Shown here: in pieces, positions 54,518-64,000 of the stretch | Numbering within the stretch: the first letter of the stretch is position 1 | Layout: each line of letters opens with the position of its first letter | Source: Gimesia chilikensis | GTDB taxonomy: Bacteria > Planctomycetota > Planctomycetia > Planctomycetales > Planctomycetaceae | Assembly: GCF_007744075.1 (NCBI RefSeq) | Contig: NZ_CP036266.1 | Location: 4,015,748-4,079,747, forward strand | DNA: 64,000 nucleotides | Direction: 5' to 3' | Position numbers and translations under genes: made by a program | The notes under the pieces: model-generated | What the model saw: the letters and a program-made list of their open reading frames with translations, nothing else | Told to the model about the DNA's origin: nothing | Database searches by the model: none

Positions 54518-54563
54518 AAAAAAATGCAGGCAGGCCACCTGAGAGGGTGGCCTGCCTGTTTTC
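54518..54563. terminator. Strong bidirectional terminator after the E1 gene
   Basis: CAGGCAGGCCACC (54527-54539) pairs perfectly with GGTGGCCTGCCTG (54546-54558). A T-tract follows on the plus strand and an ATTTTTTTATC tail on the minus strand. On the minus strand it ends the ubiquitin-like cluster, whose last gene stops at 54605. The rest of the 379-base gap 54226-54604 holds no gene I can support. Confidence 0.92.
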
Positions 54564-54604: not shown

Positions 54605-55264
54605 TCATCCGTCTAATATTGTCTCTCCAGCCAACAGGTTGAGCGTCATATCGTCATCAGTAGAAATATTTCGCAGCCAGCGGGTGAACTGGTGCAGCAT
54701 CATTCCGGCGGCGATACTGGCCGTATAGATGGTGCTACGGGAAGTGCAGGCACCAGTTTGTGCTTCTCCCTGGGAAAACAAAGTGGAGTCATAGTGTTCC
54801 CGTGACTTCGAATCAACGGCCGTCAGGATTCGCAACACCTCCCCCCGTATCCGTCCGTCGCACCAGAACGCACACTGATGTCGCAACGATCGCCAGATTG
54901 CGGTTCGACTACTGATCGAATCCACACAAATAAATACTGCTTCTCCTGTCTCCCTCCCTGGACGGAAACGATCGATTGTCTGCTCTACTTCCAGACTGGC
55001 ATCTATATCCCGTAATGCCCGCGTTGTGGCTTCCACTTTGTACTGCCCCAGGTCCGGTGCCTGATAGCCCTGGGTGGTGATGTTGGTCGGCTCAACCTGG
55101 TCGAAGTCGATCAGCTGCAACCGCTGTGCTCCCAGGCTTGCCAGCTGCAGAGCCACCTGTCGCCCAATAGCCCCTACTCCTATTACCGTGACAGGCAATC
55201 GTTTGAGTTTCTCCATCGGCACCAGGTCTGACTGGCGGACAAAACGATCAGATACAAGATTCAT
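54605..55264 (-). CDS. ThiF/E1-type ubiquitin-like activating enzyme
   Basis: 219 residues from the ATG at 55264, which has an excellent AGGAG; the longer frame upstream overlaps the JAB gene. The Rossmann motif [14 protein letters not shown] (residues 26-38) is followed by [12 protein letters not shown] (51-62), with Asp53/Asp55 and Asn61 as in ThiF/MoeB/Uba1, then Gln65 and Lys76 for ATP. Cys173 in [11 protein letters not shown] is the probable thioester or adenylate-attack cysteine. No zinc CxxC pairs are seen. It would adenylate the C-terminus of the ubiquitin-like protein encoded four genes away and pass it to the E2-like protein. The JAB gene ends 46 bases upstream. Confidence 0.88.
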
Positions 55265-55310
55265 GTGTTCTCCTGGTTCTAACTCGAAGTATGAATGTAA
55301 ACGGGATTGC

Positions 55311-55976
55311 TCAGATAGGAAAAACGGGCCACTGCTCCGAACAGGCAATTTCATCCTCAAACCATTCGGACAGGCCCCAGAGTGGGGACAGCAGTGCCTC
55401 GTGAACACTCTGACGGTACTCATCCTCCCAGGCACTGTGATTGCTGGCAGCAAACTGCGGTTTGAAATCAACGCCGACAGACAGTTTCTCCGCCTTCGAT
55501 CTGCCGGAGTGCTTTAACTCTGCGTAAGTGGCTCCATTACGGGCGAGTATGAACATCACCGCCCAGTCACAGTTCCCAAAGACACGGGCGAATGTTTCCA
55601 CATCCACCTGACTGGGGCGAGCGGAATTACCAGGGTGCGTGTGTATCCAGACCCGCCCAAACTGTTCAGGGTGCCGTCCTGCATCAATCTGGTCGTCAAA
55701 GAAATCGGCGACGGCAGTATCGTCAAAGGCGACCGTGATGTCGGTGCAGGTTTGCTCGACCAGTACGATGTCTTGGACGAATTTCGGATCGTCCGGTTCG
55801 GTAATTCCAAAACCACCCACTTCGGTCGGTCCCCGGTCACGCAGGTAGATCAACTTGGCCCAGGCATACGGACTGAACCGTAGCGGACGTGTTTTGCGCT
55901 GCTTCGGACGTTTCCGCCGGGAACGCTGCAACAGGCGTCGTGTCAGGGGCTGGGTTCTCGGGTGTGGCATCTTCAT
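55311..55976 (-). CDS. JAMM/JAB-domain isopeptidase
   Basis: 221 residues from the ATG at 55976 (55970 is an alternative). The metal-binding signature is intact: Glu52 in TEVGGFGI and His112-x-His114-x7-Ser122-x2-Asp125 in [19 protein letters not shown] proteases of this type remove ubiquitin or trim ubiquitin-like precursors. The basic N-terminus (residues 8-31, rich in Arg and Lys) is probably a loose extension. It overlaps the 3' end of the E2-like gene by 140 bases in another frame, and the E1 gene follows. Likely job here: cleave conjugates, or remove the C-terminal tail of the ubiquitin-like protein. Confidence 0.87.
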
Positions 55977-56919
55977 TCTCCATAGATTCTTCAAGACAGG
56001 ATGAACAGGTTTGATCAGACAGGCAGGAACGACAAAAGCAATCACTGCAAGAGTCACATTCAGAAAGACAATCGCGACAGAACGTGTTATGGCAGGTCTC
56101 ACAGGTGTCAGCACAACTGGAACAGAGGTGATCGCCGCAAGTAGTACAGTTACGACGGCAGTATTCACAGATCTGGTGTTCACAGATGGAACAGGGACGA
56201 CTCTCTTCCTCGGACATCGAATCGTCACAGTCAGCGCAGGATGAATTCCACCAGTTTTCCAGAGGAACATACGCTGATGCCGGGTTATAGGTCCGCAGGA
56301 TCTGCTGCACCAGCAGGAAGAAATCCCCCAGACGCCCCTCTGCCAAGGTATAGCTGAGGAGGATTTTCCCCTCGCCTTCGCAAAGCATGTCTCCTTGGAC
56401 ATGGGGATGATGGATGTCATCCGAGCCGGTTTGAGAGAGCGAGATGACCCGATAGGGCTGGGGGGCACCGATCTCGCTCCAACGGAGCCGGATTTCAAAT
56501 TCACCGAGGTTGACTTGACTCAGAACCACTTCCGGCGTTCGGACCACGATTTCCTGTTCTGACCACTCGATACGGGTTTCATCGAATTCATCTGGCAATG
56601 CACAGAGTTCCGCAGTCAACTCACTCAGGGATGGGAGTCCCTTTGGTCGCTTGAGGGCGACAAGCTCTCGGTGGTACATATTTAATTCATGAATTAAACG
56701 GGAGACATTGTCTTTGTATTGCTCCAGGCAACGCTCGAAGGCGGCTGGATAATGATGTTGCTGGGCTTTCGTCAGCAACCGCGAGAGACGCATAATCCGC
56801 GTCCAGTGATCTACTGGCGGCGATTTAACAATTGGGAAAGCAGTCGCCTGCGACTGATACTGCTCCCGAACCCTGGCAGCAGCCCTGATCCAAAGCCGCC
56901 GCGAGTGTAATCCGTTCAT
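55837..56919 (-). CDS. E2-like (UBC/RWD-fold) domain fused to a cysteine-rich zinc-finger array
   Basis: 360 residues from the ATG at 56919 after AAGGAG. Residues 40-110 are helical. Residues about 115-225 match the E2 plan: beta-meander ([10 protein letters not shown]), HPH at 171-173 in place of HPN, GDMLC with candidate active Cys180, a C-terminal helix, YNP at 211-213 and Trp223. Residues 228-308 contain 21 cysteines, mostly as nine CxxC pairs, resembling RING/B-box/treble-clef zinc modules. An E2-E3 fusion is therefore inferred. The HPN-like motif is nine residues from Cys180, against eight in classical E2s. Neighbours encode the ubiquitin-like protein, JAB and E1. Confidence 0.75.
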
Positions 56920-56935
56920 GATCTGGCATCTCCTT

Positions 56936-56972
56936 GAAAGAAACGAGGTCACCTGCTCTGGCAAGTGACCTC
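56936..56972 (-). terminator. Hairpin/T-tract just upstream of the E2-like gene
   Basis: GAGGTCAC and GTGACCTC (56945-56952 and 56965-56972) form an 8-bp stem. On the minus strand it is followed by GTTTCTTTC and then the AAGGAG of the E2-like gene. It could be a partial terminator or attenuator between the ubiquitin-like and E2-like genes. Confidence 0.6.
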
Positions 56973-57058
56973 CGTGAAAGTAATTACTGATAAAACTCAA
57001 CGTCTCTGCCACTCATTCCGGGGTCAGCGAGAGGTCGGACGAATCTCCTCACTACTTG

Positions 57059-57382
57059 TCAGAGCGGTGATGAGCATATGGCTGTTAAGACGTTGTCGGG
57101 CTCCCATGGGGGCCCGTATTGAAGAGATGATGGTAGATAATAAACATTTATAATCTGTCGAGATGTCGCCCCCTCGATCTTCACAGGTGTGATCGAAACG
57201 CGATCGCCCTCCTGCAAGATATAGTCGGCGGTGGTCGGCTGACGGTTGACGCGGATCAGGTAGTCCTGGGGACGGCCGTGTGAAACCCGCTGCTGAAACA
57301 GGGCTTCCACTGTCATGCCTTCTGCGATCTGAATCTGATCTGCAAAACCTGAGCCGTCGTTGTTGATGAATAAGATCTGCAT
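57059..57382 (-). CDS. Beta-grasp ubiquitin-like protein
   Basis: 107 residues from the ATG at 57382 after AAGGAAATACAT. Residues 1-72 have the size and rhythm of a ThiS/MoaD/ubiquitin beta-grasp fold: [10 protein letters not shown] (strand 1), [10 protein letters not shown] (helix), [11 protein letters not shown], then [17 protein letters not shown] with the closing strand. The fold ends at Gly71-Ala72, where ubiquitin-like proteins usually end in GG, but here a 35-residue tail follows, with no diglycine. The tail would have to be removed for E1 activation. Encoded upstream of E2-like, JAB and E1 genes, so a role as the conjugated modifier is inferred. Confidence 0.72.
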
Positions 57383-57429
57383 ATGTATTTCCTTGTTCAA
57401 GAACACCACTTTGCTGTTGTGGTTGAGTT

Positions 57430-57714
57430 TCAGTAATTTTCCGGCAACAACACAGTGGTCGCCGAACGATCTGCCTCGGTGATAATCCAGAATTTGATAC
57501 CGCCTGCCGTATGGTAGACAGAAAACAGGCGGCCCCCCGTCTGCAGGGCTGCTTCATTGGCACCGCAGTCTTCGAGGCAGCAGTCTCCCCAGTCTCCGGA
57601 CAGGTGCCGGGCCAGAGCCCGCTGTACTTCATATTCAGGAATTTGTTGCAGGACATCAGACGTTGCCGTAATCTGTCCCGCTGTGAAAGAACGCTGGTTC
57701 TGTCGAATCATCAT
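57430..57714 (-). CDS. Small conserved protein of mobile-element type
   Basis: 94 residues from the ATG at 57714 (57711 is equally possible). [45 protein letters not shown] and [12 protein letters not shown](N)Y mark a small family found on plasmids and integrative elements, sometimes mislabelled as restriction subunit. Its function is not known to me. It sits between a 73-residue protein and the ubiquitin-like gene, 40 and 47 bases from them. Confidence 0.7.
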
Positions 57715-57754
57715 GATTCCCTGGAAATGAGTGTGATATTTGATGTCTGTTCCT

Positions 57755-57976
57755 TCAGGCCAGTCCCGGGAATCTGCCGAACGGCTGTGAAAACAGAGAG
57801 ACATTCGACTCCAGCTCCCAGGCATCCCAATCCATGATCTGAGGTGATTGATTATCCGGCTCCGGATCAAAGTTCACATTCAGTGGATCTGCCAGACTGA
57901 AGCCCCGATTTCGGATCGCATGAATGTCTTCACCGGTGACTGAGGCCACAGCATTGTCCAGGTCTTGTTGGGTCAT
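57755..57976 (-). CDS. Small unknown protein in the ubiquitin-like cluster
   Basis: 73 residues from the ATG at 57976 with an ideal AAGGAG. TQQDLDNAVASVTGEDIHAI, RNRGFSLADPLNVNFDPEPD and PQIMDWDAWE recur, as I recall, in similar small proteins of planctomycetes. Acidic and without Cys. A hairpin with a TCTTTTTT tail lies just upstream. Possibly a substrate or adaptor, but no function can be assigned. Confidence 0.65.
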   Translation of the reverse strand: MTQQDLDNAVASVTGEDIHAIRNRGFSLADPLNVNFDPEPDNQSPQIMDWDAWELESNVSLFSQPFGRFPGLA

Positions 57977-57990
57977 CGTTAACTCCTTGG

Positions 57991-58023
57991 AAAAAAGAAC
58001 GACCACCCGCACAGGATGGTCGT
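57991..58023 (-). terminator. Hairpin/T-tract upstream of the 73-residue protein gene
   Basis: ACGACCA (57999-58005) pairs with TGGTCGT (58017-58023). On the minus strand the stem is followed by TCTTTTTTCC and then AAGGAG of the next gene, so it has intrinsic-terminator form but lies inside the cluster. Confidence 0.65.
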
Positions 58024-58066
58024 GAGAAATACACAACCACCCCGCACCAGACGAGGTAGAATTACA

Positions 58067-58312
58067 TCACGGGCTGGAAAACAACCAGTGTTGATTAAGC
58101 CAGTCGTGTTCTGCTGCCAACGCACCAGAACGACGCGAGAACGGCCCCAACAGGGGACCGTTAACCGGAGACAGGTCGGCCGTCCATTGCCCGTCCGCTG
58201 CCGGTTCAACATAAGATCCACGATTGATCACCAGTGCCCCTAGTTGAGTCAGGTCAATCGTTTCGGTATAGATGCAACGGACCAATCCCGCCTGATTGAT
58301 GATCAATTCCAT
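58067..58312 (-). CDS. Small unknown protein in the ubiquitin-like cluster
   Basis: 81 residues with an AGGAG site; its ATG comes two bases after the stop of the previous gene, so the two are coupled. MELIINQAGLVRCIYTETID, ALVINRGSYVEP, WTADLSPVNGPLLGPFSRRS and HDWLNQHWL are the visible blocks, including a beta-rich start and a helical end. I have seen similar sequences next to AAA/ThiF genes in other planctomycetes but know no function. Confidence 0.65.
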   Translation of the reverse strand: MELIINQAGLVRCIYTETIDLTQLGALVINRGSYVEPAADGQWTADLSPVNGPLLGPFSRRSGALAAEHDWLNQHWLFSSP

Positions 58313-58314
58313 GG

Positions 58315-59271
58315 TTACTCCTCCTGAGGGCTTCGCAGGATATTCCGACGCGGGCGATCAATGAGCAGACCATCCAGCGAGGACTGGACTCGCGCCAGTC
58401 GCGTGGCGACCTGCTGTCGCAAAGTACCATTCTCCCGTAACTGTTGCGGATGGATGCCCCCCACAACCTGCTGTGCCTGATCTACCAGGTCATCCAGCTG
58501 TTCGTTGGAACGGACATTCAATTTTCGAAAGCGCGCAAAGAAATCGGTGAGGTTGGTAATGGCTGTGTCCCGGAATACCTTGGGATTACCATCAGACTGC
58601 CCACTCAGCCGATCAGTCAAATGGTCGACCAGTTTCGTGAGCTCATCCAAGAACGCCTGTTCTGCGAGTTGAACCGCTTCATCAAAACGCAACTGCATCC
58701 TGTGACACTCCTGTTCGTAGAGTTCAGGGCTCAGCTGTTGCAGATAACGTGGTGGTTCCACCGCAGGATAATCATGTTCAATGTCAAACATGCCGATCAA
58801 CGAATGCGGATAGTCGGCCGGATTGAATAACTCTCCCAGTCGGTTGCGGGCAGCGGACCGCAGTTCATCAAAGTGTCGGTTCAAATTGGTTACCGCTTCG
58901 TTCAGTTCCTCTCGAAAACCGGACATACGCTGATCAAATTCATGGATGTCAGATTGTTTAATCAAGCGGATGCCGGGTTCCGGATAGGGAAGTGAAACTC
59001 CTTTCCAGTAGGCCACCGCACGTCCGCGTACTGCTGTTACGGCTTTGAAGGCCGGATGCGAGGTATCCAGAAGTTTTTTGCCAGCGGACAGAAACTTTCC
59101 TTCAGCACCAAATGAATCCGCAGCCTGGCTCTTCTGCGGGGCTGTCAGAGACTTACGTACGCCCAGCCAGGTGAAACTGAGCCGGGCAGCCGCCATCGTG
59201 CTCTGCAATCGCATGGAAGCCGTGTTGTGCGTTGGTTCGGTCTGTGGTTCTTCAAGCATGGAATGACTCAT
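58315..59271 (-). CDS. Unknown helical protein
   Basis: 318 residues, ATG after AAAGGAG. Almost entirely alpha-helical by composition, with long amphipathic stretches (GFREELNEAVTNLNRHFDEL near 120 and LTKLVDHLTDRLSGQ near 210). No transmembrane segment and no catalytic motif. Its look recalls DUF3150-type coiled-coil proteins that accompany AAA+ ATPases on plasmids, but that is a guess. An intrinsic-terminator-like hairpin lies 26 bases before its start. Confidence 0.55.
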   Translation of the reverse strand: MSHSMLEEPQTEPTHNTASMRLQSTMAAARLSFTWLGVRKSLTAPQKSQAADSFGAEGKFLSAGKKLLDTSHPAFKAVTAVRGRAVAYWKGVSLPYPEPGIRLIKQSDIHEFDQRMSGFREELNEAVTNLNRHFDELRSAARNRLGELFNPADYPHSLIGMFDIEHDYPAVEPPRYLQQLSPELYEQECHRMQLRFDEAVQLAEQAFLDELTKLVDHLTDRLSGQSDGNPKVFRDTAITNLTDFFARFRKLNVRSNEQLDDLVDQAQQVVGGIHPQQLRENGTLRQQVATRLARVQSSLDGLLIDRPRRNILRSPQEE

Positions 59272-59297
59272 GAGGACTCCTTTGTGGCTGGTGGAAA

Positions 59298-59336
59298 TGA
59301 AAAACGCTGCCAGATCTCAATTGAGCAGGCAGCGTT
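59298..59336 (-). terminator. Hairpin/T-tract inside the ubiquitin-like cluster
   Basis: AACGCTGCC (59303-59311) pairs with GGCAGCGTT (59328-59336); on the minus strand GTTTTTC follows the stem. It ends 26 bases before the ATG of the 318-residue protein. It may divide the cluster into two transcription units or attenuate the distal one. The remaining gap up to 59503 holds no gene I can support. Confidence 0.75.
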
Positions 59337-59503
59337 GCAGCGTAAATTTATGTGAATTATTTGTGACCGATTTTGTCGGTCTGATTAGCGAAACATACTA
59401 TGAGACCGGACCGGCCACGACGATGTCAGACGATACCGGAGAAATGGCTTAGGGGAACATTCTGCGGCTCATCAGTGTCAGAAAATTGGACAAAGCGACT
59501 TAA

Positions 59504-59824
59504 TCAGTCTCTGGTTTTGATTTCAGGAAGAATCAGAGTTCCGATCTGACCGGTTTCACTGAAGTGAGCCTGTTCGGCAGATTCAGGGGTTGAAAACAGC
59601 TCTGGTGTCAGAAATTCGGTTCCCCCGACATTGGTGACAGCATACTTCAGATTTGCTGAGTTTAGCTGTGTCCGTAGCCGTTGAATATCATCGGACGTCC
59701 AGATCCGATCAACGTTCGCATCGCCAGAGTAAATTTTCAGCAGATGAGTATCCTCGGGATCCATCTCCTCGGCCCAGAACTGCAGTGCGGCAATGATAAG
59801 GAGTATATCCTGTCGGGTGAGCAT
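59504..59824 (-). CDS. Small unknown protein after the AAA+ gene
   Basis: 106 residues from the ATG at 59824 with AAGGAG; upstream codons of the frame overlap the AAA+ gene. MLTRQDILLIIAALQFWAEE begins a helix, and ADRIW-like and SDDIQRLRTQLNSANLKYA segments follow. No motif recognised. Its place 25 bases behind the ATPase suggests a partner of that protein. Confidence 0.6.
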   Translation of the reverse strand: MLTRQDILLIIAALQFWAEEMDPEDTHLLKIYSGDANVDRIWTSDDIQRLRTQLNSANLKYAVTNVGGTEFLTPELFSTPESAEQAHFSETGQIGTLILPEIKTRD

Positions 59825-59849
59825 GGTGCTCCTTCCTGGGACGGGGGCG

Positions 59850-61334
59850 TCAGTTGATTGAAGAAAGGTGTTTAATACTTCGACGGGATGTTCTCCTGGG
59901 AGATTCCCAATGGAAGATGCCGGGCCGGTCAGCATCCAGACAACGATCGTTGGCCCACGTTCGCAACTGCTCGACAGACTCAGCCGCAGTCACTGCGATG
60001 GGAACCACGTAGAGCCGTGCTTCCAGCAATGTCACATCGAGCAGGCCCGCCAGCCGGCAGCAACTGCGGATCTCAGCACCAGTCCAGTCCGTATCTTCGG
60101 GACGTTCCTGCTCCGGATTGAGCCCGAATAACCGAATGTACTGTTCCCAGATCTGATTTTTCTGTTCCAGTCCTGGTAGATCCAGAAAGAAGATTCCGTC
60201 AAACCGTTCGCTGCGTCCGAATTCCGGCGGTAGTTTGGAAACGTCATTCGCCGTACAAACTACGAACACATCAGACTGATGATCGGCCAGCCAGGACAAA
60301 AAGGTCCCGAACATACGGGAGGAAACACCGGAGTCGCCATTACCGTTCAGACCGGAAAACGCCTTCTCGACCTCGTCGATCATCGCCACACAGGGAGCCA
60401 TCGCCTCGATCACGCTTAACGCCTGCCGTGTCCGCGCCTCCGACTGCCCTACCAGCGAACCGAGGAGGTTCCCCACATCCAGGTTTAGTACAGGACGCCC
60501 TACCTCCTGCCCCAGAGCCTTACAAAAATGGGATTTACCGCAGCCGGGCGGAGACAGCAACAGAACGCCCCGTGGACGCTTCCTGGGATCATCGCAGCTC
60601 GGTTGCTGCAAAGCCCGCCTACAGAACGTTTTGAGGGCTGTGAGGCCTCCCAGATGGCTGAAATCGTCCTCACCCCGGTACAGTGACAACAGACCACTCT
60701 TTTTCAGGGCCTGAGTCTTGAGTTCCCAGACGGCGTCAGCAGTGATACGTCCCTGTCGCACGAGGCTCAGGCTGAAGGCGTTCTCAGCCTCCATCCGGGT
60801 CAGGCCGGCTGAGGCATCAAGAACCAGCTGGAGTGCATTTCCCTCAGGCATCTCCCCTGCCTCGGTGGCGATCCCCCGGGCGATTTCTTCCAGCTGTCCC
60901 CGATCGGGTAACTCATGTTCAACCACAACAAACATTTTTTCCAGTTCGGTCGGAATCTGAACGACTGGGGCCAGCACCATTACAATTGAGCGGTTTTGCT
61001 TTCCGGCATTGATCTGACGCAACAAGGCCTGGACGACTTCTGCCGATTGCATGAACCGATGGAAATTCTGTAGAACGATAATCGCAGTTCCGTCAGGTGT
61101 CGCCAGCGCATTGACTGCACGGATCGCCGCCAGAGGATCAGAACCGGATGCTTCTGGATCAGGCTGACCGGGGATCTTCAATCCCGCATCGATATCCCAG
61201 GTCGCCAGTTGCCACTGTTCGTCACGACAGAGCGCTGCAATTTCGGTCAGGACTTCCTGGTGTTCGTAAGATTCAATCCAGATTCCCGTAAAGCAGGCCC
61301 GGATATATTCTGTCAGTCGGTTTCGTAGTTTCAA
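59850..61334 (-). CDS. Ycf46-like AAA+ ATPase
   Basis: 494 residues. The first 200 form an inactive, degenerate domain (IIVLQNFHRFMQSAEVVQALL, with TELEKMFVVVEHELP), and the second half is a full AAA+ module: Walker A LLLSPPGCGKSHF near 261, Walker B CVAMIDEVEKAF near 320, sensor VVCTANDV and arginine finger FGRSERFDG. This double-domain plan matches Ycf46, the plastid and cyanobacterial family. It would unfold or remodel a target using ATP. Preceded by DUF1257 and DUF2997 genes, an arrangement also seen for cyanobacterial and planctomycete relatives. Confidence 0.85.
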   Translation of the reverse strand: MKLRNRLTEYIRACFTGIWIESYEHQEVLTEIAALCRDEQWQLATWDIDAGLKIPGQPDPEASGSDPLAAIRAVNALATPDGTAIIVLQNFHRFMQSAEVVQALLRQINAGKQNRSIVMVLAPVVQIPTELEKMFVVVEHELPDRGQLEEIARGIATEAGEMPEGNALQLVLDASAGLTRMEAENAFSLSLVRQGRITADAVWELKTQALKKSGLLSLYRGEDDFSHLGGLTALKTFCRRALQQPSCDDPRKRPRGVLLLSPPGCGKSHFCKALGQEVGRPVLNLDVGNLLGSLVGQSEARTRQALSVIEAMAPCVAMIDEVEKAFSGLNGNGDSGVSSRMFGTFLSWLADHQSDVFVVCTANDVSKLPPEFGRSERFDGIFFLDLPGLEQKNQIWEQYIRLFGLNPEQERPEDTDWTGAEIRSCCRLAGLLDVTLLEARLYVVPIAVTAAESVEQLRTWANDRCLDADRPGIFHWESPRRTSRRSIKHLSSIN

Positions 61335-61381
61335 ATTATTCCCCTTCCATTTTAAATAACGCTATTAAGATCTGAATTCAC

Positions 61382-61576
61382 TCAGGAGCGTTGCTGATTG
61401 GTTTGATGTTGGCCTGCCTGTTGGTGGTATTCTGCAGTCAGCTGCTCCTCTGTTCGCTTCCCGAGCGCTGATTCAAGAAACCGGCTGGCTTCGCGGCACC
61501 CTGCTCCGGAAAAGCCTCTGGTTTCCACGCGGGTCTGGCCATCTGGGGCGACGGTGATCTCAATGATTCGAGTCAT
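61382..61576 (-). CDS. DUF2997-family small protein
   Basis: 64 residues beginning TRIIEITVAPDGQTRVETRG, followed by GAGCREASRFLESALGK and a Gln-rich tail. This matches DUF2997, a small beta-strand/helix protein usually encoded beside DUF1257. Its ATG overlaps the DUF1257 stop (ATGA), so the two are coupled. Cys27 of the GAGC motif is characteristic. Function unknown. Confidence 0.82.
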   Translation of the reverse strand: MTRIIEITVAPDGQTRVETRGFSGAGCREASRFLESALGKRTEEQLTAEYHQQAGQHQTNQQRS

Positions 61577-61941
61577 ACAGCACCTCTTACCTGAACCGTG
61601 AGCCTGATGGAACCATCTGCCTGGGCCTGCTCGGTCACGGTGTGCCCCTTACGGCGTGCTTCAATCCGAGTTTTTTCAACGGCATACGACTGTAGAAACT
61701 GATTCAGGTAGCTCTGATCCCCCCAACGTCCCTCGAAGTTGTCATATTGCAGCTTGCCACTGGCAATGTCACAGACGACAGGATACCGCCACTGCGGCAG
61801 TTCTATCCCCAGTCCGGTCGCCTGACTGCTAAAGAGTTTGAATGTCCCCTGCACCGGCGGTGGCAGCTTGAGACGTTCACACGCTGCAGAAATGGCAACC
61901 GGGTCACGTACCTCCGTTTGGATTTGGACAATGTGAGACAT
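61573..61941 (-). CDS. DUF1257 (Ycf35-like) protein
   Basis: 122 residues. SHIVQIQTEVRDPVAISAAC, LPQWRYPVVCDIASGKLQYDN and FLQSYAVEKTRIEARRKG are clear DUF1257/Ycf35 signatures. Ycf35 is a conserved plastid protein of unknown function. Here it is encoded with DUF2997 and a Ycf46-like ATPase. Its ATG follows the upstream lipoprotein gene by 21 bases. Confidence 0.87.
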   Translation of the reverse strand: MSHIVQIQTEVRDPVAISAACERLKLPPPVQGTFKLFSSQATGLGIELPQWRYPVVCDIASGKLQYDNFEGRWGDQSYLNQFLQSYAVEKTRIEARRKGHTVTEQAQADGSIRLTVQVRGAV

Positions 61942-61962: not shown

Positions 61963-62541
61963 TTAAGAGTTCAGAGTACCGAGTTTATTCTGAGCAGGAG
62001 CATCTGAAGACAGTTCTTGGTTCTCAGTGTTCTCTGGCATCAATGATTTGGGATGAATGATCAACGGACTAGAAGAAACAAGGTCATCCAGTAAGAGTTC
62101 GGCGACTTCGTTCTCCGTCGCCGGTTCTACGGTTTGGCGAAGCAACTGCCAGCAGACAACAAGGGGTAACAGGCAGATCAGGATCATGCCGAGTCTGGAA
62201 ATCGCCTCAGCGATCGCAGAGTCAAAGAATCGCTGGCTGGCCAGGGATTTGCGTTCCTGCTCAAGTTGATCCCACCGCTGGTCCATGTTGGAACGCTCGA
62301 TCTGGATTTCATGTTGCATTGCCACGATCTCCTGTCGCGACTGAGCATCAGCGGTCACTAACTGGCGAGCACCAGTAGCCACTTCCTCTTGCAGTTCAAG
62401 CATCTGCCGGCTCTGTTCGGCCTGATCCCTTGCTTGCTGCAGTGCCATCTGCGTGATTCGCTGATCGGGATGCTCCTGACAACCGGTCATCAGCAACAGC
62501 GGTCCGATCAGGATCAGCAATTTCTTTGTCAGATTCTCCAT
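61963..62541 (-). CDS. Lipoprotein with coiled coil and membrane helix
   Basis: 192 residues. The N-terminus is a lipoprotein signal: LILIGPLLLMTGC with Cys21. Residues 30-105 are a long charged coiled coil with many Gln and Glu. A hydrophobic helix lies at about 112-133 (LGMILICLLPLVVCWQLL), and the C-terminus is acidic and Ser-rich. The protein may link the cluster to the cell envelope. ATG after TGGAGGCCAC. The preceding gene overlaps its start. Confidence 0.75.
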   Translation of the reverse strand: MENLTKKLLILIGPLLLMTGCQEHPDQRITQMALQQARDQAEQSRQMLELQEEVATGARQLVTADAQSRQEIVAMQHEIQIERSNMDQRWDQLEQERKSLASQRFFDSAIAEAISRLGMILICLLPLVVCWQLLRQTVEPATENEVAELLLDDLVSSSPLIIHPKSLMPENTENQELSSDAPAQNKLGTLNS

Positions 62542-62671
62542 GTGGCCTCCATCGAAAAAGTAAACGGTTTAAAATGTTCTGCAACGCCAAACGCAGTCGG
62601 CGTTCCTTCAGGAATGCCGCAATCGCCAACAGCAAAGCGACAGAAACAAAAGTTAATCCAACATAAGCCAA
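62396..62671 (-). CDS. Possible small membrane protein at the head of the cluster
   Basis: 91 residues from a TTG at 62671 with AAAGGAG at good spacing; an ATG at 62770 is an alternative. AYVGLTFVSVALLLAIAAFL is one transmembrane helix, followed by a basic segment (KERRLRLALQNILNRLLFRW). The last 48 codons overlap the lipoprotein gene and are less protein-like, so the true protein may have been shorter before loss of a stop. Function unknown. Confidence 0.45.
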   Translation of the reverse strand: MAYVGLTFVSVALLLAIAAFLKERRLRLALQNILNRLLFRWRPHGESDKEIADPDRTAVADDRLSGASRSANHADGTAASKGSGRTEPADA

Positions 62672-62801
62672 TGCACGGTTCTCCTTTCTGGGGATGATTG
62701 ATAAACGAGATACGAAAAGTCCTATGACTCCCTGTATCCGCTTGGGTATTGCCTCATTTTTTGAATCCATCTACAGGAATCCTGTGTCTTACTGCAGGCG
62801 T

Positions 62802-62904: not shown

Positions 62905-64000
62905 TCATTCTTGAATTTTCACCAGCCTGTTAGATCCCTGAACGACTTTCAGGGTTTCTTTGTGTTTGTAATTCGTATGGGGAAAAGATACTTCAAAGTC
63001 AATACTGTCTGGATCAAAACCCAGTCCTTCCGCTGGTGTGTAACATTTCTTGGTTTCCCCTTTCGTCCAGGAATCATAATCCCAGTACCATATTTTTTCC
63101 TGATCTTCCTTTCGAAACGTGAGATTAACACGACACTTGGGAAGAAATGATAATCCATTCATGGTAAATCGAGCCCCACGCTGAGTATCCCAAATGACTC
63201 CAGCTTCGTAAGGCTGGTATTCGCCCTGGAACGTCAGCTTTTCACAGCGATAGGCAACGTCTTTATCTTTTTCGTCTCCTTTGTACTTATAATAAATCCG
63301 AGTTGCGAACTGCGGTGAATAAATCGTAACCCTCATTTCTTTCACGTATGTCACTGTGGTTCTATCCACAGTTCTTCCCAGGATTTTCTCTCCGTTTTGA
63401 TACCTCCCCCACATAGAGGCAGACTCAGGCCATGTTTTTAGAAAATGTACGTTTTTTCGTACCTCTCCGTTCGCGCCAGTCAGTTCCACCAAAATGGTAC
63501 AATCTTCCAGTGTTTCCCCAAGATTCTTAAGAAAAAGCCAGTCATCAGGGCCAGAATCTCCCCAGGATTCGTTAAAATCGACGTAGATTAGCCCGGTTGA
63601 GTCACCTAAAGTAGCCGAATACTTTTCTGCAATTTTGGGAAGCATTTTTTGTGCTGCATCAATCCTGTCAATAGCGGCAAGCAGCGGCTGCATTTCTGAA
63701 TTCAAAGCATTCTGCTTTGCCTCTGCATCAAGGCCACGGTGATAGCCTCCTGCAAAATTACCAAAGAATCCATCAATAAATGAACCAACAAACAGTGTTC
63801 CCTCATCGGAAGGCTTTGGCAGGGAATTTAAGTTGTCTAAACGCTCTAAGATAACGGTGACGGCGTCTCGAACCTGATCTGAAACATACATGATTTCGTT
63901 ATCGTTCGATTTGATCTCACGTAAGTCCAATAAGGCAGACTGTAACTCCGCCATGACTTCTGATGTCTCACGTTTTTTCTGAAGTTGAGCTGGATCTGAC
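62905..64000 (-). CDS. Unknown protein, 5' end outside the window
   Basis: The frame stays open to the last base of the window. An ATG lies at 63954, but 15 protein-like codons precede it (AQLQKKRETSEV continuing into MAELQSALLDLREI), so the gene probably starts beyond 64000. The N-terminal part is helical with a glycine-rich membrane-inserting stretch (LFVGSFIDGFFGNFAGGYH). The rest is beta-rich with FLKNLGETLEDCTILVELTG, a segment typical of small binding modules. Family not recognised. A strong terminator follows. Confidence 0.65.
   Translation of the reverse strand, partial: SDPAQLQKKRETSEVMAELQSALLDLREIKSNDNEIMYVSDQVRDAVTVILERLDNLNSLPKPSDEGTLFVGSFIDGFFGNFAGGYHRGLDAEAKQNALNSEMQPLLAAIDRIDAAQKMLPKIAEKYSATLGDSTGLIYVDFNESWGDSGPDDWLFLKNLGETLEDCTILVELTGANGEVRKNVHFLKTWPESASMWGRYQNGEKILGRTVDRTTVTYVKEMRVTIYSPQFATRIYYKYKGDEKDKDVAYRCEKLTFQGEYQPYEAGVIWDTQRGARFTMNGLSFLPKCRVNLTFRKEDQEKIWYWDYDSWTKGETKKCYTPAEGLGFDPDSIDFEVSFPHTNYKHKETLKVVQGSNRLVKIQE

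Follow-up and report, generated by a model that had tools for sequence, protein, structure and literature searches.

A candidate mobile ubiquitin-like conjugation cassette in Gimesia chilikensis and in viral contigs

The conjugation genes and their catalytic residues

The window, by which we mean the whole 64,000-nucleotide stretch analysed here (contig NZ_CP036266.1, positions 4,015,748 to 4,079,747, of the 8.29-Mb, one-contig genome of Gimesia chilikensis), carries a cluster in which genes for a ubiquitin-like modifier (UBL), an E2-like protein, a JAB/JAMM metalloprotease and an E1 stand side by side. All genes of the cluster lie on the - strand, at the positions that an earlier note on this DNA had given, and are transcribed in the order up349, up124, up192, DUF1257, DUF2997, AAA+ ATPase, s143, p318, s81, s93, s146, UBL, E2-like, JAB, E1. 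The earlier note had read the last four as a complete ubiquitin-like conjugation set, with the four core roles adjacent on one strand. The coordinates and family matches bear out the adjacency. That the set is probably complete is supported by the family matches, by the invariance of the catalytic residues, by a beta-grasp model of the modifier and by conserved linkage. The conjugation part of the cluster comprises the following features, in window coordinates:

54527..54558, - strand: terminator-like hairpin, 47 bases after E1 (13-pair stem, 10 GC, T run)
54605..55264, - strand: E1, ThiF-type, 219 aa, GVGAIG, Cys173 (PF00899)
55311..55976, - strand: JAB/JAMM metalloprotease, 221 aa from the ATG at 55976 (start predicted), identified by its JAMM residues
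55837..56919, - strand: E2-like protein, 360 aa (UBC-like model, Cys180)
57059..57382, - strand: UBL beta-grasp modifier, 107 aa (ThiS match, model)

The hairpin behind E1 has the longest of the 12 stems found (9.5 expected in shuffles), and shorter terminator-like stems of 12 and 10 pairs precede the E2 and s93 genes. The E2 and JAB reading frames overlap at 55837-55976, and the shared part codes conserved JAB residues. Five proteins of the cluster score above the curated Pfam cut-offs, namely DUF1257, DUF2997, AAA, ThiS (the modifier) and ThiF (the E1). Residue counts given below come from alignments of cellular and viral relatives, in which a few loci occur twice, and refer to the rows that cover the site.

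The E1 matches PF00899 once, at 81.7 bits (cut-off 28.1), and its matches in the PDB are PaaA, MccB, ThiF, MoeB and E1s. All 50 rows that cover the site, out of 52, have Cys173, in agreement with the ThiF-type E1 of the earlier note. The JAB protein scores 22.7 bits against Prok-JAB, slightly below the cut-off of 25, and aligns weakly with Rpn11; the JAMM residues E52, H112, H114, S122 and D125 are nonetheless kept in 47 of 47 aligned rows, so that the isopeptidase motif is indeed intact.

The modifier scores 23.1 bits against ThiS (cut-off 22.5). Its structure model has a confident beta-grasp core, for which Foldseek gives the ubiquitin of Caldiarchaeum (C. subterraneum) and ThiS as best matches (E about 7e-4) and VIA gives MoaD, TtuB and SAMP1 at Z 9 to 10, with MoaD and TtuB first; the beta-grasp fold proposed for this small protein is thereby confirmed by structure prediction. 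The core of the window copy ends in KIEGA (G71, A72) and is followed by a 35-residue tail, and therefore has no Gly-Gly. Of the rows that cover these sites, 47 of 49 have Gly71 and 44 of 44 have Ala72; the alignment has a gap at Ala72 in 10 of its 54 rows, the three Gly-Gly rows among them. By a pattern script, Gly-Ala occurs in 23 of 23 cellular modifiers, and the 22 viral rows divide into Gly-Ala (13), Gly-Gly (three: L063, L065 and L168), Gly-Ser (two) and none of these (four); by eye, several of the six viral rows in the last two classes also carry Gly-Ala near the end, L059 and L060 being without it. In 35 of 45 rows, the modifier runs on for 0 to 5 residues beyond this Gly-Ala, Gly-Gly or Gly-Ser pair. 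A tail of 28-35 residues, with residues in common, low model confidence and no predicted structure, is found in the window copy and its near relatives. Tandem modifiers, with two or three domains in one open reading frame (ORF), occur in the viral loci L051 (and its duplicate L052), L061 and L062; the E2 ORFs of L051, L061 and L062 are 724-804 aa long. A search of plasmids for the modifier gave no match.

The E2-like protein consists of a helical N-terminus, a UBC-like domain (about residues 98-225) with the motif HPH171-173 and Cys180, and a Cys array from about residue 228. Cys180, singled out by the earlier note, is kept in 49 of 49 covering rows (67 rows, 18 gapped). His171 and Pro172 are kept in 48 of 49 rows, and residue 173 is His in 42 and Asn in 4, giving HPN. 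In the 45 rows that show the pattern, the Cys follows the His of the HP motif at a distance of 9 residues (38 rows) or 10 residues (7 rows); six rows are without the pattern. In the structure model (mean pLDDT 80), a helix leads into four strands, which are followed by the HPH loop, Cys180 included, and by two helices; UBC proteins have this same succession of helix, strands, loop and helices. UBE2H, UFC1 and UBE2W head the Foldseek list for this model, and VIA aligns UEV domains at Z 6.8-7.0 over 124-128 residues, ranked under unrelated helical matches. The BFVD matches of the model (best E 1.8e-4) are mostly unnamed giant-virus and phage proteins and are not usable for the UBC part. Model, HP motif and the head of the Foldseek list thus support the UBC fold that the earlier note had predicted, short of proof at a best Foldseek E of only 0.17. 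The Cys array gives weak B-box, FYVE and RING-type matches among PDB chains (best E 0.008), and may be RING-like with a role as ligase. A Prok-E2_B gene elsewhere in the G. chilikensis genome (C1:7068078-7068380; L001, L047; 39.6 bits) was set aside: only an E1-profile match (E=3.8e-23) was found at its locus, which is not this cluster.

Two separable modules in cellular and viral loci

The genes transcribed ahead of the cassette include a second set, built around an AAA+ ATPase. The ORF counts given below for the families s93, s146, up192, up124 and up349 include the window's own copy.

58067..58312, - strand: s81, small protein of the AAA module (18 ORFs; 44/105 viral loci)
58315..59271, - strand: p318, DUF3150-like, AAA module (profile match to a plasmid DUF3150 gene)
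59850..61334, - strand: Ycf46-like AAA+ ATPase, 494 aa (PF00004)
61382..61576, - strand: DUF2997 protein (65.2 bits, cut-off 24.1)
61573..61941, - strand: DUF1257 protein (27.3 bits, cut-off 22.2), presumably of Ycf35 type

The Pfam matches above cut-off place DUF1257, DUF2997 and the ATPase upstream of the cassette, where the earlier note had seen them. The ATPase scores 98.8 bits against PF00004 (cut-off 21.2), with the Walker A motif PPGCGKS and DEVEK, and its AAA domain is nearest by sequence, among PDB matches, to Cdc48/AFG2-type ATPases. No Ycf46 model is found among its matches, and the name Ycf46-like reflects a likeness, including one of the N-terminal part, that we assume. The p318 profile matches a gene annotated DUF3150 on a Manganitrophus plasmid (CP114554) that carries AAA, DUF1257, DUF2997 and DUF3150 genes together; the DUF3150 link comes from this plasmid gene alone, and a direct search of the G. 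chilikensis genome with PF11348 (DUF3150) gave no match at E≤10.

We compared cellular loci, sampled by one contig scan with a single modifier sequence and by one phylum sample, with viral loci from profile scans. Left out before counting were G026, G046 and G123 (Cys array only), L029 (a weak, short match), L072 (weak), and L021 and L052 as duplicates of L035 and L051; L001-L019, short versions of longer loci, were not counted. The order UBL, E2, JAB, E1 is found in 19 of 23 cellular loci, the other four (L022, L023, L024 and L026) being partial or cut by a contig end, and in 17 of the 23 viral loci tabulated from the 25 that a scan of IMG/VR with the E1 profile returned (one duplicate and one weak locus left out). 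Recurrence of this order in near and distant loci shows that the linkage is conserved in relatives, as the earlier note's reading implied.

The AAA gene is also present in 15 of the 23 cellular loci. It is missing from the stretch read in L026, L028, L036, L038 and L043 and in L027, which lies on a 3.5-kb contig, while L022 and L023 carry p318 or part of it without AAA. A scan of IMG/VR with the AAA profile gave at least 80 loci, and 79 of 80 AAA-found viral loci had no UBL, E2, JAB or E1 match within the sequence covered, at most 8 kb on each side. Across 105 viral loci, AAA was found in 85, DUF1257 in 77, DUF2997 in 76, p318 in 73 and s81 in 44. The cluster thus contains two separable modules, the UBL-E2-JAB-E1 cassette and the AAA module. 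The earlier note's single pathway with a coupled AAA+ ATPase is borne out only in part: each gene set occurs without the other, and the coupling is seen in 15 of 23 cellular loci. In Planctomycetota, the cassette appears to be mostly built together with this second mobile module (DUF1257, DUF2997, AAA+, p318, s81).

Of the 80 contigs listed with the AAA profile, nine are 197-205 kb long. The AAA gene lies beyond the cassette at some distance in L054, L059, L067 (~168 kb) and L058 (55.9 kb), and one 69.5-kb viral record (L048/L073) carries a window-like set from up124 to E1. Relatives of the ATPase are found in 96 cultured-phage records, with about 27-32% identity among the 40 listed, and DUF1257 and DUF2997 lie near AAA in one of two cultured-phage loci checked. 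The AAA gene is broken into two parts that lie some way from each other in the viral loci L128, L132, L140, L141 and L143, a pattern that an inserted intron or homing element would give. In L031:559-3953 (G. chilikensis C1, about 6991058-6994452), DUF1257 is split by a ~2.9-kb insertion that holds a 711-aa recombinase ORF and a different second DUF1257. The distant cassettes L028 and L043 adjoin DUF2958 genes.

Copies, transfer and viral carriage

The G. chilikensis genome holds six copies of the cluster, all with both modules. In the phylum sample, 11 of 294 genomes have an E2 match, three of them only in the Cys array, and of the six members of the genus listed four are without it. Recombinases are concentrated around the six copies: the genome has 22 recombinase matches (9 to PF07508 and 13 to PF00589), of which 12 lie within 15 kb of a cluster against 0.48 expected, a number reached in 0 of 20,000 random placements; these points are not independent because two clusters are 44 kb apart and several are similar paralogues. 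A 31-base motif, with three mismatches allowed, occurs at seven sites of the genome (4080529, 5357046, 5361990, 5399989, 6831600, 6833672 and 7104042), six of them within about 12 kb of a cluster, and its reversed control occurs nowhere. This motif contains a palindrome centred on GGCC, with TATAAT nearby in several cases, and its seventh site is 2.5 kb from an integrase. A search for direct-repeat att sites found a shared island motif on one side of the clusters only.

The clusters of G247 and G024, which belong to two genera, are 95.2% identical in DNA over 8430 bp, whereas the only DNA match of their Ffh regions is 70.9% over 832 bp; we therefore conclude that the cluster was recently transferred horizontally between genera. 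Rows of cellular and of viral origin are mixed in the tree of the E1, where well-supported branches force at least two changes; the tree is rooted only at the midpoint, and its bootstrap had not settled. Transfer may have run in either direction, the sampling of cellular genomes having been narrower than that of viral contigs.

The carrier of L053/G299 has a terminase (6.7e-36), a portal (3.1e-56) and a weak baseplate match, and is clearly a phage. The 69.5-kb record mentioned above has a terminase (4.3e-55) and an integrase, and other genes of it match kinase- and esterase-type families, because of which it may be a prophage in a piece of chromosome. Viral carriage is thus shown for one record and likely for several. 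Matches to the E1 were also found in 38 cultured-phage records, at ~30% identity among the matches listed. The literature listings searched, which did not cover the operon lists of Burroughs et al. 2011, yielded no phage-borne cassette of this kind.

Proposed function, rival explanations and related systems

We propose that the UBL-E2-JAB-E1 genes form a mobile conjugation cassette, carried by phages and integrative elements and serving conflict between such elements, and we put the probability of this reading at a little under 60%. Conflict between mobile elements is favoured because the cassette is shared by viral contigs, lies near recombinases and defence genes, and is present in six copies in one genome. 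New with respect to the earlier note are the division into two modules, these six copies, the horizontal transfer, the association with viral contigs and with recombinases, and the defence genes just past the window. We would go further only tentatively, a shade short of an even chance, and suggest that phages, some of them of ~168 kb, encode complete cascades for use in infection or against rivals, each with a Gly-Ala modifier (in some cases in tandem), an E2 bearing its own zinc-type ligase array, an E1 and a JAMM protease, and that planctomycetes exchanged them with phages more than once and retain six copies in one genome.

Several observations weigh against the proposal. On the viral side, a terminase-family match at E≤0.001, in some cases very weak, was found in only 9 of 24 conjugation-type viral records, and 11 of 14 control genomes matched this family as well; of 29 viral records, one had the portal family tested. 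The E2 gave no tblastn match in cultured phages (50,697 records) or plasmids, and no profile match to UBL, E2 or JAB was found near the cultured-phage E1 in the two loci checked. In the window copy, the nearest recombinase is 34 kb away. With respect to the proteins, no Pfam family, those of E2s included, is matched by the E2-like protein at E≤1, none of its Foldseek matches against the PDB reaches E≤0.001, and its top rows in VIA are unrelated helical proteins aligned over N-terminal residues 28-93, outside the UBC part. The modifier ends in Gly-Ala, and AAA module and cassette each occur apart from the other.

Our working model of the chemistry, which we infer from the gene set, is as follows. 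The JAB protease would trim the modifier behind Gly-Ala, removing the tail; the E1 would adenylate the modifier end and take it as a thioester on Cys173; and the modifier would then pass to the E2, at Cys180. The Cys array in this protein could act as a built-in E3 or as a substrate-binding part. A target would thus be modified, in a way that JAB might reverse, and in operons having one, the AAA+ ATPase may remodel the modified target. The likely purpose would be conflict between mobile elements, either defence of the carrier or counter-defence.

A rather unlikely account is that the cluster is a host anti-phage defence of the Bil or CBASS kind, residing in defence islands and taken by phages as cargo. 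The surroundings speak for it. About 1-28 kb past the right edge of the window (L157, L158) lie genes for an SNF2 helicase, AAA_21+DUF4435, an Eco57I/MmeI-type methylase, GmrSD_N, AAA_15/DUF3696, MZB, a PLD nuclease and an integrase; we take the helicase, methylase, MZB and PLD genes to be DISARM-like and the DUF4435 gene to be PARIS-like. The SNF2 helicase, MmeI-type methylase, MZB, PLD nuclease, AAA_21+DUF4435 and GmrSD_N all lie within about 40 kb of the cluster. We also scanned 97 of 105 flanking ORFs of 16 cellular loci (five ORFs above 1,130 aa and three others omitted, none obtained from L041, and the window's flank excluded). Their proteins match 153 PADLOC families, the 25 listed including GajA, GajB, mad2 and type I-C Cas3/Cas8c/Cas7/Cas5, and Pfam identifies five integrases and four resolvases among them. 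A control of 97 of 114 ORFs from 17 arbitrary places matches 44 families, 17 of the 25 listed being PD-T4-6, which we take to be a kinase; such model counts overstate the content because many models match one protein. Gabija and CRISPR I-C genes near other clusters are more numerous and clearer than in the control, and the patchy presence of the cluster and the weak IetA match of its AAA also fit a defence role. Against a host defence, the control likewise gave defence-labelled matches (Cas3c, WYL, mad3, mad6, mad8), no recognised effector gene was found, and PADLOC matches only single parts of the cluster (IetA-type AAA, weakly; E1-E2; JAB), with none for the modifier or the E2. In addition, the AAA module is common in viral contigs, and the E1s of viral contigs span much of the tree, a comparison that is unfair because cellular genomes were sampled more narrowly.

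It is unlikely that the cluster serves phage infection as such (replication, host takeover or assembly) and was captured by bacterial islands. The modules do occur in large viral contigs, one carrier has both terminase and portal, and cultured phages hold relatives of the AAA; however, no cassette was found in cultured phages, and use by the carrier is suggested because cellular copies keep the catalytic residues and number six in one genome. We regard as improbable that the E2-like protein is non-catalytic and that the modifier serves as a regulatory switch, tagging only the AAA+ complex or the conjugation machinery itself: the weak fold statistics would allow it, but Cys180 is invariant in the covered rows and the HP motif precedes it by 9 or 10 residues in 45 of 45 pattern-bearing rows. 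Least of all do we expect a sulfur-carrier pathway of the ThiS/MoaD kind in place of protein conjugation, which the ThiS match, the MoaD and TtuB matches and the ThiF-type E1 would suit, but which sits poorly with an E2-like protein bearing an invariant Cys, a modifier ending in Gly-Ala and not Gly-Gly, and a scan of cluster proteins in which neither a rhodanese nor a cofactor enzyme turned up.

In bacteria, a few anti-phage systems are known to use ubiquitin-like conjugation. A conjugation cassette shared with phages and moving between genera, with a Cys array and a Cdc48-type neighbour, would make ubiquitin-style tagging on the attacker's side directly testable, and such tagging seems to belong to the arms race of mobile elements with their hosts. 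The E2-like proteins are highly diverse, some of them having the canonical HPN motif, and offer material on the origin of the ubiquitin system.

The four conjugation roles are established in bacteria (PMC1779556, PMC11354881). The nearest system that we compared in the literature is the FtsH-ternary system, yet most parts differ. According to Kaur et al. 2020 (PMC7159879), FtsH-ternary systems hold a complete Ubl set with AAA+ ATPases and resemble the present cluster in JAB, E1, E2, a RING-type part, AAA+ ATPases, several helical proteins and occurrence in planctomycetes, but have features of their own, namely MoxR, vWA, a double FtsH-type ATPase, a Ubl fused to E2 and EAD1 (separate Ubl and E2 genes here), a separate RING gene and a caspase-like effector. 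No Pfam match to MoxR, vWA, FtsH, the caspase-like effector or the other distinguishing features just named was found among the cluster proteins scanned, and NCBIfam FtsH models give the ATPase 39.5 bits against a cut-off of 600.

Bil (BilABCD) shares the Ubl, E2, JAB and E1 roles; its BilA contains two Ubl domains, its BilB is marked by a CEHH motif (Glu +6, His +8 and His +13 from the Cys), and its BilD combines two adenylation domains with a Cys domain (PMC11354881). In contrast, the window encodes a single Ubl, an E2 of HPH-Cys type joined to a Cys array, a single-domain E1 of 219 aa and the AAA module; the CEHH motif is absent after C180 of the window E2, and a second adenylation domain is absent from the E1, which has one ThiF match. 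The type 6d operon likewise has separate Ubl, E2, JAB and E1 genes and a helical protein, but its E2s are described as being without the usual His and having one His downstream instead (Iyer et al. 2006, PMC1779556). The E1 of Bub is related by sequence, and the PDB chain BubCD is 458 aa long, its name suggesting a fusion. As to type II CBASS, no CD-NTase match was found in the cluster, E1 and E2 are unfused, and the Cap3 model gives the JAB 14.1 bits against a cut-off of 200. We take the PRTRC cassette to be linked to the type 6d operon; the NCBIfam model PRTRC_ThiF gives the E1 31.9 bits, under its cut-off of 144.75. Plasmid CP114554 shares AAA, DUF1257, DUF2997 and DUF3150 with the AAA module, and its 19-kb stretch gave no UBL, E2 or E1 profile match, an annotated JAB-domain gene two before AAA matching only at E=0.0044. 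The present cluster stands out by its Gly-Ala modifier, by an E2 that is fused to a Cys array, by its AAA/DUF1257/DUF2997/DUF3150-like partner and by being shared with viral contigs.

Finally, the gene set of the earlier note, which counted at least four additional small proteins, is real but was drawn too narrowly: p318, s81, s93, s146, s143, up192, up124 and up349 all recur. Those outside the two modules are the following:

57430..57714, - strand: s146 family, in a subset of loci (start predicted; 7 ORFs)
57755..57976, - strand: s93, small conserved protein, mainly of cellular loci (start predicted; 20 ORFs)
59504..59824, - strand: s143 family, in a subset of loci, at variable position (start predicted; 6 ORFs)
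61963..62541, - strand: up192, putative lipoprotein or membrane protein at the cluster head, with a lipobox-like start and a hydrophobic stretch by eye (11 ORFs)
62396..62770, - strand: up124, small putative membrane protein, overlapping up192 (8 ORFs)
62905..63954, - strand: up349, heading some clusters (3 ORFs)

Among viral loci, s93 was found in 2 of 105, both from one contig.

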